Assembly: GCA_015487785.1 (NCBI GenBank)
Contig: WFPC01000058.1
Span: forward strand, 1-64,000
From: Gammaproteobacteria bacterium
Lineage (GTDB): Bacteria; Pseudomonadota; Gammaproteobacteria; S012-40
DNA: 64,000 bases
Direction: 5' to 3'
In this document: positions 17,097 through 25,647 of the stretch, in pieces
Position numbering within the stretch: position 1 is the first letter of the stretch
How the letters are laid out: each line of letters opens with the position of its first letter
Position numbers and translations under genes: made by a program
The notes under the pieces: model-generated
Told to the model about the DNA's origin: nothing
The model's input: only the letters and a program-made list of their open reading frames with translations
Database searches by the model: none

Positions 17097-17729
17097 TTAC
17101 AGGCTGGACAAATACTCGGTAACCGCATCGATCTCGGCATCGGACATCCGCTTGGCGATATCGCCCATCATGCCCGCCGGATCGTTCTTGCGATCGCCGG
17201 AACGGAAGTTCTGCAACTGCGCCACCAGGTAGTCCTTGTTCTGACCGCCGATCACAGGGAAAACCTGGTTGCTGGGCGACTTGCCACGCCCCTTCACACC
17301 ATGGCAGTTGATGCAACCATACAGGCCGGTGCGGGGATTACCCTTCTCGAAGATCTCCTTGCCCTTCTTGATCAGTTTCTCGTCACTGCCAGGAATCATC
17401 GCCTTCATGGGCTTCTGGCTGGAGAAATAGGCCGCGATGTCGTAGAGATCCTCCTTGCTGGCAATCGACAAGGCCATGGGGCTCATGGTGTCGTTGTAGC
17501 GAAGATTCTTCTGGAAATCGGTTACCTGCTTGACGATATAACCCGGCTTCTGACTGGCCAGGTTGGGGAAATTAGGCGCAATGGCCTGACCCTGTTCGCC
17601 ATGGCATCCATGACACAGCGCGGATTTCTCGAAACCCGCCTCGGGATCCCCTCCTGCCTGCACCCCTCCTGCTGCCGACAACAATGCCATCACAGCCACT
17701 GTAGAAAAAATTTTTCTTATCATATTCAA
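17097..17729 (-). CDS. Dihaem cytochrome c, c4 family
   Basis: A periplasmic electron carrier of 210 residues with a signal peptide (IRKIFSTVAVMALLSAAGGVQA) and two homologous cytochrome domains. Haem motifs are CHGCH (residues 39-43) and CINCH (139-143). Met ligands are likely in NDTMSPMAL and in DPAGMMGDIA. Domain spacing and length fit cytochrome c4, which usually passes electrons to terminal oxidases or denitrification enzymes. The gene is monocistronic: a terminator follows it and a ~170-nt gap precedes it. Which partner it serves here is unknown; the other cytochromes at 56-62 kb are candidates. Confidence 0.9.
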   Translation of the reverse strand: MNMIRKIFSTVAVMALLSAAGGVQAGGDPEAGFEKSALCHGCHGEQGQAIAPNFPNLASQKPGYIVKQVTDFQKNLRYNDTMSPMALSIASKEDLYDIAAYFSSQKPMKAMIPGSDEKLIKKGKEIFEKGNPRTGLYGCINCHGVKGRGKSPSNQVFPVIGGQNKDYLVAQLQNFRSGDRKNDPAGMMGDIAKRMSDAEIDAVTEYLSSL

Positions 17730-17900: not shown

Positions 17901-18998
17901 TCAAACTGTTTCCCGCCCACCGAAATGCCCCCGCCAGGCCTTGCGTGCCAGATGGGGCAACAACAGGTGCAGGGGCATGCGCAGGGCATGCGAGCGCACA
18001 TAGAGCAGCCAGCGCGCCAGGCCGCTGAAGGCATCGCGGCAACTGGCATGGTCCGGCTGCAGCGCGCGGTCGAAACAGGCCTGCATGAAATCACGCCCGG
18101 GCCAGGCCGGCGCCTGGACGGCCAACGCCTGCAACCAGGCTTCGGGCAGCGGAGTGCGCAAGAAGCGATGACAATTCCACGCAGCATAATAAAGCGGCCG
18201 TCCCAGACCAAGCTGCTCCGCACGCTGGGCCAGGGTCGGGAGAAAATCCCCATCGCTGCCGAAATGGCGCAACAAGGCATCCAGATCCACCAGGTCGCGC
18301 AAACCATGTTCCAGTTCGCCATCGAAGAACAGGTGGGTGGCACTGTGCAACACCATGTCCGCGGGAGCCAGAATCGCAAGACGCCCGTCACCGCCACCGT
18401 CCACGGGCCGTGCCGCCTCCAGCAGCAGACGGGCATCGGGGGTCACCACCGCGGTAGAAGGCAGGATATTGTGATGCACATCCAAGGAGCTGTGCCGGCG
18501 GGTATGGTGCATGGGCGGCAGCTCATGCATCCATTGCCGATAATAGCGCTGGTCGTAGGCATCCAGCTTGGAAAAGGCCCAACCCTTGCTCAGCAACACG
18601 GCCTCGACACGCTCCAGGCGCTCCCGCGGCACCAGGATGTCCACGTCGGAGAACAGGCGCCCCACCGCCGGCGGCAGGTCCGCCATCACATAGGCCGCTC
18701 CCTTGAGCAACACGATGGGACAATCCAGTTCCGTCAGCTCCTCGCGCAGGCAGCGCACGTCCCAACGCACGATTTCCCGGTGCCGCGCGGCCAGGCGCCG
18801 GGCCGAGGCCAGATGCAGGGCCGGCCGCCGGGGCACCGTCTCCAGCACGCCCGCCATCGCCAAACGCTCGGCCAGGGTACCCAGCAGATCGGCGCGCCGG
18901 GCCTGGCGCAACAACAGGTCCCAGCGCGCCAGATCGTAATCACGGCAGCGGGCGGGCTCCACCAGGCTCGTCGCCAGCAGGCTACGCAGCCGTTTCAT
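17901..18998 (-). CDS. Nucleotidyltransferase family protein (NTP_transf_5 type)
   Basis: A 365-residue cytosolic protein with a nucleotidyltransferase-like core: LLKG at residues 97-100 and the metal-binding pair in FSDVDILV (D118, D120), followed by long helical regions rich in Leu and Arg. It resembles the uncharacterised NTP_transf_5 family often found beside HprK-related kinases in exopolysaccharide/exosortase loci and beside kinases in some lasso-peptide clusters. ATG 18998 overlaps the kinase stop codon (ATGA), so it is coupled to that gene. The substrate is unknown; a phosphorylated protein or peptide is one possibility. Confidence 0.8.
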   Translation of the reverse strand: MKRLRSLLATSLVEPARCRDYDLARWDLLLRQARRADLLGTLAERLAMAGVLETVPRRPALHLASARRLAARHREIVRWDVRCLREELTELDCPIVLLKGAAYVMADLPPAVGRLFSDVDILVPRERLERVEAVLLSKGWAFSKLDAYDQRYYRQWMHELPPMHHTRRHSSLDVHHNILPSTAVVTPDARLLLEAARPVDGGGDGRLAILAPADMVLHSATHLFFDGELEHGLRDLVDLDALLRHFGSDGDFLPTLAQRAEQLGLGRPLYYAAWNCHRFLRTPLPEAWLQALAVQAPAWPGRDFMQACFDRALQPDHASCRDAFSGLARWLLYVRSHALRMPLHLLLPHLARKAWRGHFGGRETV

Positions 18999-19909
18999 GG
19001 AGACCCCTGCGCCAGATTCTCGAAGAAACCCATCGCCTCCTCCAGGCGGCTGTAGTGCAGGCGGTAACAGGCGCTGGCATCCACCAACTGGGCCAAAGCC
19101 TGGAAACCTGCCTCGCCGAGAATGTGATAATTGAAGGTCTGCGCCGCCAATTCCATCAGCATGCGCGCCCGCCCCAGGGGCTGGACCTCCAGCCCGGCAC
19201 CGGCCTCGTAACGTGGCAGGAGCAACCATGCTGCCCGGCCCGGCTCACCGGCCCGGGCCACACTGTCGTCCGGTGCCCGCACATGGGCCACGGTTCCCTT
19301 GTGGGTATCGGCACTCACCGGGCCGAACACCGCCGCTGGCGCGAAGCGGCGGATCAGGTCGATGGAAGCATTTTTCAGGCTTACCGGCCGCGGCAAGGGC
19401 ATGATCTCGCCCGAGGACAGGGAAACCAAGGCCATTTCATCGGAGAACAGACGCCAGCCCCGGTGGATCAATGCCGCGCACAGGGTGCTCTTGCCCGCTC
19501 CCGGCGCCCCGGCAAGTATGGCCACGCGGCCTGCCCGCTCCACCACCGCCGCATGGATGATGGCGTATTCGTGGGCATGGGTGGCCACGCACCAGTTGAG
19601 CGACCACTCGAAAAAGGGAAAGGCCTGCACCAGCGGCAGGGGCTTGAAAGGGCTGTAGCCGTCATTGCTGAAGATCACCTGCGGCCGGTAGAAGCGGCGC
19701 AGGCCACCGGCTGGAAACAGGCTCATGTGGATGTCGGCAAACACCGGCGGGATCTCCACCGGGTAACGGCCATACAATCGGCCCAAGCCCTCGGCCACGC
19801 TGGGAATGGGACTGTGCAAACGCACGATGAAGGGGCCAATGCGCAAGCCAAGACCGGTTTCGGCCAAAGCGCGGCGCAGGCGGGCGGGATCGAGGTCAGC
19901 GATGATCAC
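18995..19909 (-). CDS. HprK-related kinase (HPr-rel-A system)
   Basis: A 304-residue protein with a C-terminal HPr-kinase-like fold: P-loop GAPGAGKST at residues 134-142, then WRLFSDEMALV with an acidic pair (D157, E158) and SLKNASID. The N-terminal ~120 residues are family-specific. It lacks the full HPr(Ser) kinase/phosphorylase architecture and no HPr gene is nearby, so the target is not ordinary PTS control. The start is GTG 19909, which overlaps the end of the PqqD-like gene by 14 nt. In family terms this matches HprK-related kinase A. Related kinases phosphorylate lasso-peptide C-termini in Paenibacillus; a peptide or protein substrate is inferred here. Confidence 0.82.
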   Translation of the reverse strand: MIIADLDPARLRRALAETGLGLRIGPFIVRLHSPIPSVAEGLGRLYGRYPVEIPPVFADIHMSLFPAGGLRRFYRPQVIFSNDGYSPFKPLPLVQAFPFFEWSLNWCVATHAHEYAIIHAAVVERAGRVAILAGAPGAGKSTLCAALIHRGWRLFSDEMALVSLSSGEIMPLPRPVSLKNASIDLIRRFAPAAVFGPVSADTHKGTVAHVRAPDDSVARAGEPGRAAWLLLPRYEAGAGLEVQPLGRARMLMELAAQTFNYHILGEAGFQALAQLVDASACYRLHYSRLEEAMGFFENLAQGSP

Positions 19910-20207
19910 CGGGCAAGCATACGACGATTCCCAGTCTTTGCAAACCGACCAGCCGCTCGCCGGTGATCTGTTCCAGTTCCTCCTGGCTGCCGGCGCCCAG
20001 AACCTCGCCCACATGGGCCGCCAGCCCGGCCAGGCTCATGGCACCCTGCTCCAGGGCCTGCAGGATCAGGGCCGATACCTCGTCCACCAAGTGAGTGGCC
20101 CCGCTGGGCCGGTGATAGACCACCGCCTCGTCATCCCACTGACGCAGACGCAGGGAATCAGCCTCCTCCAGGGCCCACAGCACGGCTGAAGGAGGCGGAG
20201 AGGCCAT
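19896..20207 (-). CDS. PqqD-like protein of the HPr-rel-A system
   Basis: A 103-residue protein whose core (VVYHRPSGATHLVDEVSALILQAL, then helices ending ITGERLVGLQRLGIV) has the winged-helix PqqD/RiPP-recognition-element pattern: beta hairpin, conserved DE, then helices. PqqD-type domains bind leader regions of modified peptides and hand them to enzymes. It sits 20 nt after the SPGYWK protein gene and overlaps the kinase gene, so it may present that protein or an unseen peptide to the kinase. Start ATG 20207 has GGAGGCGGAGAGG upstream. Confidence 0.8.
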   Translation of the reverse strand: MASPPPSAVLWALEEADSLRLRQWDDEAVVYHRPSGATHLVDEVSALILQALEQGAMSLAGLAAHVGEVLGAGSQEELEQITGERLVGLQRLGIVVCLPGDHR

Positions 20208-20227
20208 GGCGCCAGGAAACTCAGATA

Positions 20228-20821
20228 TCAGATGAAAGTAGTGGCAAACAGATCGACGGCTTCCTGCGGGGTCAGCGTCAGCCCGATGCCGTTGAGGTAA
20301 TAGGTAGCACCCGATTCCACAGCCATATACAGATCGACGACCTGGGTGGTGCTGAAATAATAGCCTGGCGCCACAATACCGCCGTTTTCCGACTCATGGG
20401 CATTCAGGTAGGCCGCCACCGCATGGCGGGCGAGCTGGCGCTCGACTTCCGGCAACCCGCAATAGGCATCATAGGGAGGAGAACCGCCTCCGGCACAAGC
20501 GCCCTCGGCCAGCTCGATCACTTGCAAAAACGTCAGACTGCCAAATTTGCTGGAACCGAAAATGCTCTGGAAGGTCACCGCAGCAGGATCCAGCAGGCCA
20601 GTGTGCGTCTTCCAATACCCCGGACTGCGGCCATAGACCATGGTGCAACTCGTGGAATGTGCGGAAACATTGCCGGATAGATCGCCGGAGAGGGTGCAGT
20701 TGCCAGCGGCAAACACTTGGCGGCCGGGAATACTCATCAAGACAGGCGCAGCCAGCGCGGCCTTGGCCAGGCGCCGCCGGGAAGCATCCATACCATGTTT
20801 CTTAGGCTCGTCTCGATTCAT
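20228..20821 (-). CDS. Tat-exported SPGYWK-motif protein, candidate HPr-rel-A substrate
   Basis: A 197-residue protein with a twin-arginine signal: a charged N-region with S-R-R-R-L-A-K (residues 14-20), the hydrophobic stretch AALAAPVLMSIPG, and likely cleavage at VFA-AG. The mature part has four Cys (42, 59, 109, 121) and the motif RSPGYWKTH (65-73), which recurs in surface proteins of exosortase-type bacteria. The remainder is probably helical (LTFLQVIELAEG, LARHAVAAYLNAHESE) and ends VDLFATTFI. It is the first gene of a four-gene operon with PqqD-like, HprK-like and nucleotidyltransferase genes, hence the suspicion that it is their target. No enzyme motif is visible. Confidence 0.75.
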   Translation of the reverse strand: MNRDEPKKHGMDASRRRLAKAALAAPVLMSIPGRQVFAAGNCTLSGDLSGNVSAHSTSCTMVYGRSPGYWKTHTGLLDPAAVTFQSIFGSSKFGSLTFLQVIELAEGACAGGGSPPYDAYCGLPEVERQLARHAVAAYLNAHESENGGIVAPGYYFSTTQVVDLYMAVESGATYYLNGIGLTLTPQEAVDLFATTFI

Positions 20822-21094: not shown

Positions 21095-24000
21095 CTATGC
21101 CGGTCTCGTGTCAGTGGCCCACCGCCCGGCCGCCGCCAGCGCCACCAAGGCCAACAGGTAGAACAAGAAAATAAACCGCGGTGCATCCAGCAGGCTGCTA
21201 AAGAGCCCCGTCACCAGGAACCCCGTCAGGCCCGCCAGCAAGCCCAGCGCCAGCACATGGTCAGCATGTAGCAGCAGGGCACCCACCCTGCCCAGCAACA
21301 GCAGGAACAACAACAGGCCAAACAGGCCCTGTTCGAACAACAGGTGCAGGAACAAGTTTTCCATGTGCCAGGGCCAATAGGTGTCACTGGTGAACAACCA
21401 GTGGTCACCACCCTGCCAGAAAGCACCGTTTTGCACCCCTTGGTTGCCGGCGCCATCCGTCAGGGCAATGCGGTCCACCTCCACCACGCTGCCCGCTCCC
21501 AGGTTGGCCAGAGACAGCACCAGAGGTGGTCGCGGCCAGCCTGCCTCGTCCGCGAACCAGCGTCCCTCGGCCTCCACCTCACGCCACTGGCCCTGCCCCA
21601 CCGCCAGACGGTGGCTACGACAACGCAGGGAATACAACACGTTTTTCTCGCACAGGAACACACTCAGCACCGCCTCGCCCCCGAAGCCCCGCAAACGGGC
21701 CACGATTCGGTAGTCCCGCCCGGCGGGGCGCGCAATACGCTGGTCCAGGTAGATGGAGGGGGAACCGGATCCCAGGCGCAGCACCACCCGATCGTCCTGC
21801 ATCACATAACGGTAGGTGCCCGGCATGTTTTCAGCACCACCGGCCTGCAGATAGTTGCGCGGAAAACTGCCCAGTCCCATACCGAAGGCCAGGGCTTCTG
21901 GCTGCATCATGTCCAGGGACTGACGCCAGTGCGCGAGCCGCGCCGCCATGTCCTGCGGCACGCTACCAAGACGCGCCTGGGCAAAACTGCCGCTGAGCAC
22001 GGGATAGGCCACCATTCCTCCCAGCAGAACCACTGCCGGCACGGCCCAGCGCAGCGTACCCACGCCGAAGCGCCGACCGCCCATCGATCCAAACAACAGC
22101 AGTAGCGCCAGGGCGAAACCCAGGTAGCCTCCTCGTGAAAAGGTCACCAACAAGCCATAGATCCCCAGCACGAGAACCAGCAGGCCCAGCACACGCCGCC
22201 AGGTGGCTCGCTCGTGAATCAGCCAGGCCACCAGCAGGGGCAAGGCCAGGGCGAGCACGGCTTCCACATACCCACTGCCGGCATGCATTTCCAGCAAGCC
22301 CCCATCCACCCGAAACGGCGTATTGAAGTCCAGCAGACCCACGAAGGCCAGGCGCTCCCACAGAATCTTGACGCTCAGGCCCAGCAGACCCAGCAGGATG
22401 CCCGTGATCAACCGGCGCATCACCGGCTCCCCCCGTTCCCGGTCCAGGTGCAGAAAGGGCAGCAGTAGTGTCAATGCCACCACCGGCTTGAGCAGGCGCA
22501 GACCGTTATAGGGGCTGTAATAATCGTAGAAGGTATTGATGTCAGGCAAACGCCAGGGCAGCAAGCCGATGACGGCGCTGACCCCATAACTGGCCAGCAG
22601 CAGAAACCACAAGCGGTAAGTGCGCCAGACTCGTCGCGCCAAACCCGCCGGCCAGGACACACGTCCGTAGAGCAGGGCCAGGCTCACCAACAGGAACAGG
22701 TCGAAGGCATCCAGGTATACCCGTCCCGACCAGGGTGCCAGATTCAACACCGGCAACAGGGCCGGCAACACCAATAACCACAGGCCGGGCCGGCACCACA
22801 GCAAGACAGCATAGGCCAGCAGCCCCAGCAGCAGGGGGCCGCGTGCCACGGGAAAATCCAGCCAGGCATACAGCGCCAGCACACCCCAACCCAGGGCCAG
22901 AAAGCGAGCCAGGCGAGGGGGCCGCGCCGTCACCGTGCCGGCAGCGGCAACAGGCGCGGGCGCGACCGGCTCCGCCGGCATTTCGCCCGAGCCGCCGCCT
23001 TCCAGGCGCCGCCAAGCCCAGTCCAGCCCGGCCATCACCAGCATGGCCGCGGCTGCGGCGATCAACACATCGGTATAGTCCGGATGCTTGCCCGGCGCCC
23101 ACAACTTGCCGGTTTCCATCACCAGGGCCAGGCCGGCAGCCATGATGCCGGCCTGCAGCACTTGTGACATCCCCGGCGATATTTGCCAACCCCGCCGCCA
23201 CAGCCAATACCCTGCTCCCACAGGGGCATAGAGTGCCAGATGATTGAGCACACTGCGCAAGGCCACCGGCTCGGAGGTGAAGTAATGATAGAAAAACGGC
23301 ATGAGGCGTACCTGGCGCCACTTCTCCAGCAGCTCCGCCGGCGCCAGGGACTGGGCCTGGAACCAGTGATTCAGATAGGCCAGCACCAACAGATACAGCG
23401 GCAGAACCGCCAGCAAGAACGACCGCGCCAGCGGGACCAGACGCCGCAGCCGCAACAGCTCCTCGCGGCGCAAAAAAGCCGCACCGAGAAAAAAGCCCAG
23501 GCCTCGCATCAGCACCGAGACCCCCTGTGCCACACCGGAGGCGAGCATGAGTTGTAGGGTTTCCAGCAGCGCGCCCAGCAGCAGGCCATAGACCAGCCAT
23601 TGCCAGGGTCCCGGCGCAATTTCATGCCGACGCAGCCAGCCGGCGGCCAGCACGCCCAGCGGCATGGCAGCCAGGATCTCCAGCCCCAACGAGGCCAGGC
23701 AATAGGCCGGGTTGTCGCAAGGGGTGAGCAACAGGGCCACGCTGTCGCCGGAAAGCTTCCAGCGCAGCTCCTCCAGCGAAATCAGGAAATCGAAGGGAAA
23801 CAGCGTCATGAAGGCATAGGCCAGGGCATAGAGCCCCAGGGCGGCCCACAGGGCCGTCGCCCCGCGCAACCTGACCCGGTGCCACAAGCGAGCCAAGCGG
23901 TCACCGGCCCGGCGCCAGATCAGAGCCCCCAACACCGTGCCGATACTCTCGGCGATGAGGTCGTTGATGGACACCGTGCGCGGCGCGAAAAAGGTCTGCA

Positions 24001-24337
24001 GGAATTCCACCGCCAGCGCCAGCGCCAGACCAAAAGCGATCACCAATCCCATGACCAGGCCGGGCCGGCGGCCCAGGGGCGTCAGGGACAACCAGCGGGC
24101 GCCGAGAAAAGACAAGGGCACATAGAGGATGATGTTGGCAACCCAGTCGGCCCGGGATACCACCGAGAGATCCAGAAAACGAATGCCCAGAAAGGCCTGC
24201 CAGGCTTCCTCCAGGGAATCCAGGCGCAGCTCGAAGGGAATGAAACTGCCATACAGAATGACACCGATATAGGCGAGCCAGGCCAGGATGAGGCGGTTGC
24301 GCGCCATATTGAGTCGCGGATAGGGCGAAGCAGCCAT
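21095..24337 (-). CDS. Triple-VanZ / O-antigen-ligase-like fusion membrane protein
   Basis: A 1080-residue polytopic membrane protein. Residues ~18-145, ~165-290 and ~305-440 are three VanZ-like modules (YGSFIPFEL...VANIILYVPL; LFPFDFLISLEE...LGLEILAAMPLG; NHLALYAPVGAGYW...METGKLWAPGKHPDYTD). A Pro/Ala linker follows, then a Wzy/WaaL-like ligase region (~480-790) with the hallmark TFSRGGYLGF near 732-741. A soluble, probably beta-sandwich insert (~800-945) precedes the last membrane helices. The ligase region suggests polymerisation or transfer of a polysaccharide; the VanZ modules have no settled role. ATG 24337 overlaps the upstream stop codon by one base (TGATG). It likely works in an exopolysaccharide pathway with the beta-helix protein. 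Confidence 0.8.
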   Translation of the reverse strand: MAASPYPRLNMARNRLILAWLAYIGVILYGSFIPFELRLDSLEEAWQAFLGIRFLDLSVVSRADWVANIILYVPLSFLGARWLSLTPLGRRPGLVMGLVIAFGLALALAVEFLQTFFAPRTVSINDLIAESIGTVLGALIWRRAGDRLARLWHRVRLRGATALWAALGLYALAYAFMTLFPFDFLISLEELRWKLSGDSVALLLTPCDNPAYCLASLGLEILAAMPLGVLAAGWLRRHEIAPGPWQWLVYGLLLGALLETLQLMLASGVAQGVSVLMRGLGFFLGAAFLRREELLRLRRLVPLARSFLLAVLPLYLLVLAYLNHWFQAQSLAPAELLEKWRQVRLMPFFYHYFTSEPVALRSVLNHLALYAPVGAGYWLWRRGWQISPGMSQVLQAGIMAAGLALVMETGKLWAPGKHPDYTDVLIAAAAAMLVMAGLDWAWRRLEGGGSGEMPAEPVAPAPVAAAGTVTARPPRLARFLALGWGVLALYAWLDFPVARGPLLLGLLAYAVLLWCRPGLWLLVLPALLPVLNLAPWSGRVYLDAFDLFLLVSLALLYGRVSWPAGLARRVWRTYRLWFLLLASYGVSAVIGLLPWRLPDINTFYDYYSPYNGLRLLKPVVALTLLLPFLHLDRERGEPVMRRLITGILLGLLGLSVKILWERLAFVGLLDFNTPFRVDGGLLEMHAGSGYVEAVLALALPLLVAWLIHERATWRRVLGLLVLVLGIYGLLVTFSRGGYLGFALALLLLFGSMGGRRFGVGTLRWAVPAVVLLGGMVAYPVLSGSFAQARLGSVPQDMAARLAHWRQSLDMMQPEALAFGMGLGSFPRNYLQAGGAENMPGTYRYVMQDDRVVLRLGSGSPSIYLDQRIARPAGRDYRIVARLRGFGGEAVLSVFLCEKNVLYSLRCRSHRLAVGQGQWREVEAEGRWFADEAGWPRPPLVLSLANLGAGSVVEVDRIALTDGAGNQGVQNGAFWQGGDHWLFTSDTYWPWHMENLFLHLLFEQGLFGLLLFLLLLGRVGALLLHADHVLALGLLAGLTGFLVTGLFSSLLDAPRFIFLFYLLALVALAAAGRWATDTRPA

Positions 24338-25647
24338 CAGTTCGGCTTGGGTTCCAGCCGCGGTCGCCACAGTGGTCGGGCATCGCGACGATAGGCTCCG
24401 GGCTGGAACACGCCCCGCCACAAACCGTCGAAGTCGCGCTCGGCATCGAGGTAAGCGCGCCACCAGCGCGCAGCCGGAGGCGGCAACGCCAGTCTGCCCG
24501 GCAGGCCACTGAGATCCAGCCTGCCCAATGGCGCGAAGGGAGCCCGTAGATGGTGGCCGGCCTCCACATAGGCGTCCGTCACATTGGCCTCCTGTTCACC
24601 CCCCTGCAGGGGCCGGTCGGCAAACACGGCATTGCCCAACAGACGCTGGCGAAAGCCTGCTTGCTGTCCGGCTTGTCGCAACACCCGAATACCGTGTTTC
24701 GCCGCCACTATGGTGTTGAAGAACACGTCTACCCGGCGGGGAATGTCGTTGTGCGGTTGGATATGCACCGCGCTACCGTGGTAATTGATGAACAGGTTGT
24801 TGTACAAGGCGATATTCCCTTCTCCCTGAAACAGGGCCTCGTCGGGGTTCTGGTAGAAGAAATTACCGTAGATCTGGTAATAGTCCTCGGCGCCGGCGCC
24901 CGACGGCGGCCAGTGCCCCACCAGCACATTGGGCCGTGCCAGCTCCACCCGGCCATTGCCCCGTGCCTTGCTGAATACGTTGTGGCGAATGACGGTGGTC
25001 TGGCGCGGCCGTCGCAGCTCGGCGATGGCGGGACGCCCGCGCTGATGCTTGATCTGCAGATTATACCCCAGGGTCTCGCTGACCAAGTTGTATTCGATCA
25101 GGCCGGCCACGAAGGGATCACCGCCATCGGAATCCCCCAGATAGATGCCGGTGCCGGCACGCCGGATGACATTGCCACGGATCACCCAGCCCCAGCTGGG
25201 ACACTTGGTGGAAATGGCCACGATCTGCTGATTGTGGTCGTGATTGCGGATCAGCAAACCTTCCAGGGTGATGTGGTGGGTCCAGCGGGCATGGCCCTCG
25301 GCCTTGACGCCGTTGACCGGCAAACCGCGCCCCTCCAGCACCAGGTTGCGGATGACCACATGGGCGGCATCCACCAGACTCACGGTATTGTGTCCCGGCC
25401 GGGCCAGAAACACGGGCGGCGCGTCGGGATCGGCGCCGCGTATCACGATGGGCGCGCCCTCGCGCCCCTGCAAGCGGTGAATGGGCAAGCCACGGCGGTA
25501 CACACCCGCGCGCAGCACCAGCTCGTCGCCGGGCTGCAGGCGGGGTAACAGGGCGCGGTAGTCCCCTGGCCCGACGTGATAGACCGCGGCCAGGGCCGGC
25601 TCGCAGGCCAGCAAGGCCAACAGCGCCAGACCACGCCACCGGTTCAT
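24337..25647 (-). CDS. Exported parallel beta-helix (pectate-lyase-like) protein
   Basis: A 436-residue protein with a signal peptide (RGLALLALLACEPALA) and a right-handed beta-helix pattern: repeated short turns such as APIVIRGADP, HVVIRNLVLEG, HHITLEGLLIRN, WVIRGNVIRR and ALYNNLFINYHGSAVHIQ. GDYRALLPRLQPGDELVLRAG at the N-terminus matches the capping region of DUF1565/pectate-lyase-like proteins. It may bind, cleave or epimerise an exported polysaccharide; a catalytic set cannot be assigned. It lies between tilS (4-nt overlap) and the VanZ/ligase fusion, tying the surface locus to the core operon. Confidence 0.8.
   Translation of the reverse strand: MNRWRGLALLALLACEPALAAVYHVGPGDYRALLPRLQPGDELVLRAGVYRRGLPIHRLQGREGAPIVIRGADPDAPPVFLARPGHNTVSLVDAAHVVIRNLVLEGRGLPVNGVKAEGHARWTHHITLEGLLIRNHDHNQQIVAISTKCPSWGWVIRGNVIRRAGTGIYLGDSDGGDPFVAGLIEYNLVSETLGYNLQIKHQRGRPAIAELRRPRQTTVIRHNVFSKARGNGRVELARPNVLVGHWPPSGAGAEDYYQIYGNFFYQNPDEALFQGEGNIALYNNLFINYHGSAVHIQPHNDIPRRVDVFFNTIVAAKHGIRVLRQAGQQAGFRQRLLGNAVFADRPLQGGEQEANVTDAYVEAGHHLRAPFAPLGRLDLSGLPGRLALPPPAARWWRAYLDAERDFDGLWRGVFQPGAYRRDARPLWRPRLEPKPN

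Follow-up and report, generated by a model that had tools for sequence, protein, structure and literature searches.

Gene clusters for lasso peptides combine a B1 protein, which is a recognition element of ribosomally synthesized and post-translationally modified peptides (RiPPs), with an HprK-type kinase, a nucleotidyltransferase and sometimes a sulfotransferase (PMC8498205, PMC7533575). The HprK-type kinases phosphorylate the C-terminal serine of lasso precursors (PMC9266682), and PsmN of the pseudomycoidin cluster, which is annotated as a nucleotidyltransferase, attaches one or two hexoses to the serine phosphate (PMC9266682, PMC8498205); in that case a route by prior nucleotidylation and a host transferase was left open (PMC9266682). 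Here we consider a cassette with the same kinds of enzymes at positions 17901-20821 in the first 64,000 nucleotides of contig WFPC01000058.1 (gammaproteobacterial assembly GCA_015487785.1), a stretch called the window below. This cassette is probably a tailoring trio of the lasso type used on exported proteins, and it is well supported that the exported protein encoded beside the trio, the SPG protein, is not just a neighbour but belongs to a family of substrates. A first-pass annotation of the same DNA held the function of the system to be undescribed. The enzymes do carry NCBIfam names, those of the HPr-rel-A system, and in the literature searched neither a publication mentioning the system nor a published function or substrate of its enzymes was found.

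Results

The cassette and its families

The four tightly spaced minus-strand genes claimed in the first-pass annotation are present at 17901-20821, and they overlap or nearly abut. Read in the 5' to 3' direction of the minus strand, they encode the SPG protein, an exported leader protein and the proposed substrate (20228..20821, 197 amino acids); a PqqD-like RiPP recognition element (RRE) and putative leader binder (19896..20207); HprK-related kinase A (18995..19909); and an NTP_transf_5 nucleotidyltransferase, the NTase (17901..18998). The gap between the SPG gene and the PqqD-like gene is 20 nucleotides. With the GTG at 19909 as the most likely start of the kinase, its gene overlaps the PqqD-like gene by 14 nucleotides, while the kinase stop and the NTase start overlap by four (ATGA); the kinase searches and residue numbering used below are taken from a start at 19888. 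Scores for the enzymes lie well above the curated cut-offs: 378.9 bits against 200 for the kinase (TIGR04352) and 192.7 against 31.2 for the NTase (PF14907). The PqqD-like protein reaches 63.3 bits against 35 (TIGR04353), and the SPG protein had no family match in the profile search with the window proteins. By these profile scores the cassette is assigned to the HPr-rel-A system (TIGR04352, TIGR04353).

A leader protein accompanies the kinase

The first-pass annotation had proposed a survey for proteins that always accompany the trio, and this was carried out on 399 Pseudomonadota genomes, with the kinase counted when it scored over the TIGR04352 cut-off. Counts from an iterated kinase profile were not used, since that profile had absorbed the NTase by way of L061, where the two enzymes are fused, TIGR04352 covering residues 20-299 and PF14907 residues 354-608. 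Neighbours were clustered after a composition filter on open reading frames (ORFs), as unfiltered ORFs gave mostly shadow frames. The kinase occurs in 61 of the 399 genomes, and since the trio recurs in them the arrangement is not due to chance. The constant companion is a protein with a twin-arginine (RR) leader: it is nearly always encoded directly upstream of the PqqD-like protein, and trio and leader protein recur together across classes. A recognised leader protein is found in 60 of the 61 kinase genomes when L080, L082 and L083, which were read by eye, are included and G189 is left out. In a separate pattern test, 52 of 66 loci showed a leader ORF at the cassette, compared with 32 of 986 background ORFs.

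Beyond the leader, the mature parts of these proteins fall into three otherwise unrelated types. Type A, to which the window protein belongs, carries C-T-x-S-G..S-G-N-x-S immediately behind the leader and in most cases SPGYW; type B has S-C-W-x-S-F at its C-terminus, and type C, seen in one sphingomonad-type family, has T-C-[FY]-A-S-L there. SPGYWK was therefore rejected as the defining feature of the system, a role in which it had first been cast: it marks just one of three substrate types, and what the types have in common is the RR leader and a Cys-x-x-Ser (CxxS) motif. As a separate observation, a TPGYWK domain occurs in a 750-amino-acid secreted protein (L102:3842-6094) of an exosortase-bearing genome without the kinase, so that the domain exists outside the system.

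The types differ in how their profiles are distributed. The type B profile matches 40 of the 399 genomes, ten of which were used in building it, and all 40 are among the 61 with the kinase. The type C profile, applied to 51 genomes, matches 11 of 11 with the kinase and none of the 40 others. Strong matches to the type A profile all lie at cassettes, but all seven of them were training sequences; its other matches are a second leader protein of the window genome and two weak ones in long proteins of kinase-free genomes. Leader genes also occur apart from the cassette, at 160 kb from the kinase on the same contig in G214 (type C) and on other contigs in G081 and G125. From the fact that such unlinked copies still co-occur with the kinase it can be argued that function, and not only neighbourhood, keeps the two together.

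The association was also examined out of sample, with 56 genomes related to that of the window; nine of them have the kinase over the cut-off. A 48-residue leader profile built beforehand matched with E<1e-7 in eight of the nine and in no other genome, and seven of these eight had been absent from its construction. At its cassette the ninth genome, G422, has an RR protein resembling type B. At eight newly fetched loci the leader protein is encoded directly upstream of the PqqD-like gene in every case, with two such proteins in G405.

A second leader protein and a shared CxxS site

The second leader protein of the window genome is encoded on contig 20 (L100:4905-5600), beside a gene for a PEP-CTERM protein and with no adjoining kinase. 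A leader core of 14 residues, APVLMSIPGRQVFA, is identical in the two proteins. Their 26-residue leaders are 69% identical and their mature parts 39%, whereas an orthologue elsewhere with equal mature identity (40%) has a leader that is just 42% identical; the pair in G405 points in the same direction, with 73% for the leader and 55% for the mature part. Such a pattern would arise if a single recognition protein read both leaders, which it suggests without proving, and the orphan is probably a second substrate of the cassette.

The CxxS motif is the only Cys-Ser spacing that is frequent in all three types. Among type A proteins 26 of 31 carry it, or 27 once the beginning of the mature part of L077 is corrected, as do 28 of 28 of type B and 7 of 7 of type C, compared with 11.4, 8.2 and 1.0 expected from shuffling; the proteins are related within each type, so that the weight of these counts lies in the agreement between types. 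In the type A alignment Ser45 is found in 25 of 25 sequences, and Ser49 and Cys42 each in 24 of 25. The AlphaFold2 model of the SPG protein is disordered over residues 1-60, thus including the CxxS segment, and folded from about residue 61; a disordered segment of this kind could fit a kinase site. Foldseek returned no usable match for this model (best E 2.2).

Predicted recognition, export and catalysis

In fold, the PqqD-like protein is an RRE according to its AlphaFold2 model (predicted local distance difference test, pLDDT, 88). The best Foldseek matches in the PDB are the lasso B1 proteins TbiB1 and TfuB1 with leader peptides bound, followed by PqqD (5sxy among the top) and by RREs from other enzymes of RiPP pathways. 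At the sequence level, a profile run against the PDB matched only TbiB1 and TfuB1, weakly (E 0.03 and 0.23). Against the Pfam PqqD family (PF05402) the protein scores 14.6 bits, under the gathering cut-off of 23.4, so that the label PqqD-like, taken over from the first-pass annotation, is to be read as an RRE fold nearest to lasso B1. Binding of peptides or leaders by this protein would be expected from its fold.

The SPG protein has the N-terminus ...SRRRLAKAALAAPVLMSIPGRQVFA. Its RR leader spans residues 14-39 and is followed by the segment C42-T-L-S45-G..S49-G-N-V-S and by a helical SPGYWK domain; leader and CxxS segment together (20651..20791, minus strand) match leader profile A8 and form the proposed region of recognition and modification. 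The leader contains SRRRLAK...QVFA, that is, a motif of the S-R-R-x-F-L-K type with an AxA cleavage site, as is characteristic for the twin-arginine translocation (Tat) pathway. Arg16 is found in 25 of 25 and Arg15 in 22 of 25 aligned type A sequences, and TatC is present in the window genome (237 bits). The putative assignment to Tat draws on three features, namely RR motif, AxA site and genomic TatC. NCBIfam profiles did not detect a PEP-CTERM signal on the SPG protein.

The kinase retains the active-site positions of HprK, with a His before the P-loop and an Asp-Glu pair after it; the P-loop GxxGxGKST, His112 and Asp150-Glu151 are invariant, and its PDB relatives are HPr kinase/phosphorylases. 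In the NTase the pol-beta-type motif (LLKG...GR..SDxDILV...LDVHH) is intact, with K99, G100, R114, D118, D120 and H175 invariant and D173 nearly so; a PDB sequence search gave no match for it. In several genomes a gene for a tetratricopeptide-repeat (TPR) sulfotransferase is inserted between kinase and NTase, for example L053:7289-9004, which suggests optional sulfation of the same substrate.

A second variant was seen in passing. At L137:1489-2654 and L129:409-3072, HprK-like kinases of 69 and 78 bits, under the TIGR04352 cut-off, directly adjoin genes of short RR-leader peptides (56-90 amino acids), with an NTP_transf_5 gene upstream in L129. Further short peptides with a leader of this kind (RRxFLKK..YxAPVI) also occur at L122:1366-1593, L123:1402-1608 and L136:1354-1614, with no kinase within the 3 kb fetched.

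Genomic setting

XrtA/PEP-CTERM exopolysaccharide genes surround the cassette at many loci in gammaproteobacteria and in several other genomes; they include the TIGR03108 amidotransferase, glycosyltransferases (TIGR03087, TIGR03088, TIGR04063), PrsT and PrsK. An exosortase is present in 32 of the 61 kinase genomes, including all 13 from the class of the window, compared with 48 of the 338 others; a complete XrtA cluster is also encoded in the window genome, on a different contig from that of the cassette. In type C genomes the cassette lies among housekeeping genes, still with the leader protein adjoining. The link to exosortase is frequent, not universal. Asparagine-synthase-like neighbours were tried as lasso cyclases and rejected; they are XrtA amidotransferases, and the one in the exosortase cluster scores 1096 bits as such but 238 as a lasso cyclase, under the cut-off of 525.

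Directly upstream of the cassette the window encodes a 1122-amino-acid protein in which VanZ-like repeats are combined with an O-antigen-ligase-like domain (21095-24463), and downstream a diheme cytochrome c (17097-17729). A diheme cytochrome c gene also lies 3' of the cassette in several members of the family of the window genome (L142:5307-6062, L145:6056-6697, L146:6290-6937, L149:6017-6658), which is probably shared synteny. No promoter-like sequence was detected by a sigma-70 scan in the stretch that immediately precedes the SPG gene; a TATAAT with a 19-nucleotide spacer, seen by eye, is not counted as evidence.

Discussion

A probable leader-guided modification cassette

Computation shows which families the proteins belong to, that the PqqD-like protein has an RRE fold, that leader proteins are associated with the cassette, that a paralogue exists and that the active-site motifs are intact. 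We think it likely that trio and leader protein constitute a post-translational modification cassette which phosphorylates, and probably phosphoglycosylates, leader-tagged proteins before they are exported. That leader proteins of the SPG type are its substrate family is well supported by the genome comparisons; the chemistry, the order of the steps and a role in exopolysaccharide or the cell-surface layer are what we infer.

To exemplify, consider the SPG protein in the cytoplasm. Its twin-arginine leader would be bound by the RRE, which would present the protein to the kinase. The kinase would phosphorylate a serine, most likely Ser45 of the CxxS just past the leader, and the NTP_transf_5 enzyme would then extend the phosphate, by precedent most plausibly with a sugar or sugar phosphate, possibly with a nucleotide. 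This order is proposed because of the analogy with the lasso kinase and PsmN. The modified protein would finally be exported, probably by Tat, and its leader cut at AxA. If signal peptidase removes the leader there after export, neither a dedicated leader protease nor a cyclase is needed, and the lack of a B2 leader protease fits such a scheme. The cassette had first been likened to the tailoring portion of a RiPP pathway; the RRE fold, the retained P-loop, His and Asp of HprK, the lack of B2 in the genome and the constant exported companion uphold that description, with its chemistry conjectural. Nucleotidylation, then the best guess for the second step, is given up for glycosylation as the probable reaction, the nearest characterised precedent being the addition of hexoses to phosphorylated serine by PsmN. 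More tentatively, and as an extension that we would sooner doubt than assert, the export signal would double as a RiPP-type leader, such that one trio serves exported proteins which are unrelated apart from their twin-arginine leader and CxxS site, and gives them a phosphodiester-linked decoration coupling them to exopolysaccharide or the cell surface. In an extreme version, the phosphorylated serine of CxxS may be eliminated and the site closed with its cysteine.

Several observations weigh against modification of leader-tagged proteins as proposed here. The leader comparison within genomes covers two genomes, and recent gene conversion could mimic the identity of their leaders. The Fisher test for co-occurrence of type B with the kinase (p = 7e-40) overstates independence, as the genomes are phylogenetically clustered, and is not to be taken literally. 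CxxS is N-terminal in one type and C-terminal in the others, which leaves it uncertain whether all share a single acceptor site, and the motif is missing from a few members. Finally, the Tat signal profile TIGR01409 does not match the SPG protein at E<10, so the earlier claim of a Tat-exported protein retains its RR motif, AxA site and TatC but gains nothing from this profile.

Other explanations

The substrate of kinase and NTase could instead be an exopolysaccharide precursor, either a glycan or a lipid, with the exported protein as an unmodified structural or receptor partner. The many cassettes among XrtA/PEP-CTERM genes and the higher frequency of exosortase in kinase genomes speak for such a role, but the sphingomonad-type cassettes keep the leader protein among housekeeping genes, leader proteins accompany the kinase even where their genes lie apart, and an RRE has no obvious task on a glycan; this makes a glycan substrate rather unlikely. 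Still less probable is that the PqqD-like protein serves as a proofreading chaperone for Tat, while a small phosphorylated cofactor is made by kinase and NTase or loaded by them onto the exported protein, side chains being left unmodified. Tat substrates commonly fold and gain cofactors in the cytoplasm with the help of leader-binding chaperones, and the mature SPG domain is predicted to be folded and has conserved Cys residues. The unrelated mature parts of the three types do not, however, fit one cofactor site, and the PqqD-like fold resembles RREs rather than known Tat chaperones.

A true pathway for lasso or other cyclised RiPPs, with protease and cyclase genes scattered in the genome, would account for the joint presence of B1, kinase, nucleotidyltransferase and occasional sulfotransferase. 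It appears very improbable, since the B2 protease domain (Transglut_core3) has no match in the window genome, which is about 95% complete, the XrtA amidotransferase misses the cyclase cut-off, and the precursors are 130-300 residues long with a folded domain (197 residues in the SPG protein), unlike the short unfolded precursors of the lasso type. Of the first-pass claim that cyclase and leader protease are missing, the protease part thus extends to the genome, while the cyclase part extends to the surroundings of the cassette, where none was found, no genome-wide search aimed at cyclases having been made. Hardly any weight attaches to the idea that the kinase acts on HPr or sugars and is unrelated to the exported protein. 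Its homology to HprK lies in the P-loop region, and against TIGR00679 it scores 22.8 bits where the cut-off is 240; a separate and better HPr kinase candidate is encoded on contig 24 (150 bits, also under the cut-off), and the window kinase is tightly linked to RRE and leader protein.

Modification of leader-tagged proteins, if true, would extend leader recognition in the style of RiPPs to folded, exported proteins, and would render testable a link between protein phosphorylation or phosphoglycosylation and exosortase and exopolysaccharide. The three leader-protein families, which co-occur with the kinase even as unlinked copies, provide named candidate substrates and a candidate acceptor motif.

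Comparison with known systems

With the paeninodin (PadeK) and pseudomycoidin (PsmK/PsmN) clusters the cassette shares an RRE (B1), an HprK-type kinase, a nucleotidyltransferase homologue, sometimes a sulfotransferase and, presumably, leader-guided modification. It differs from them in that no B2 was found and no cyclase belongs to it, in its long folded substrates with an export leader, and in its Pseudomonadota hosts and frequent exosortase/exopolysaccharide setting. PqqD of pyrroloquinoline quinone biosynthesis has the RRE fold in common with the window protein, which falls under the Pfam PqqD cut-off and is nearer to lasso B1 in sequence and fold. To the SynChlorMet cassette the likeness is weak: the kinase resembles ScmC in the P-loop region (28.7 bits), far under the cut-off, and the gene content differs. 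Exosortase A and PEP-CTERM proteins are frequent genomic company, and the second leader gene adjoins a PEP-CTERM protein gene, but the SPG protein is without a PEP-CTERM signal, and cassette and exosortase A lie on separate contigs. Closest is the HPr-rel-A system itself, with kinase and PqqD-like protein over both cut-offs and an adjoining NTase; NCBIfam names the enzymes only, and what is added here are the types of substrate, the CxxS motif and the finding that these proteins co-occur with the kinase.

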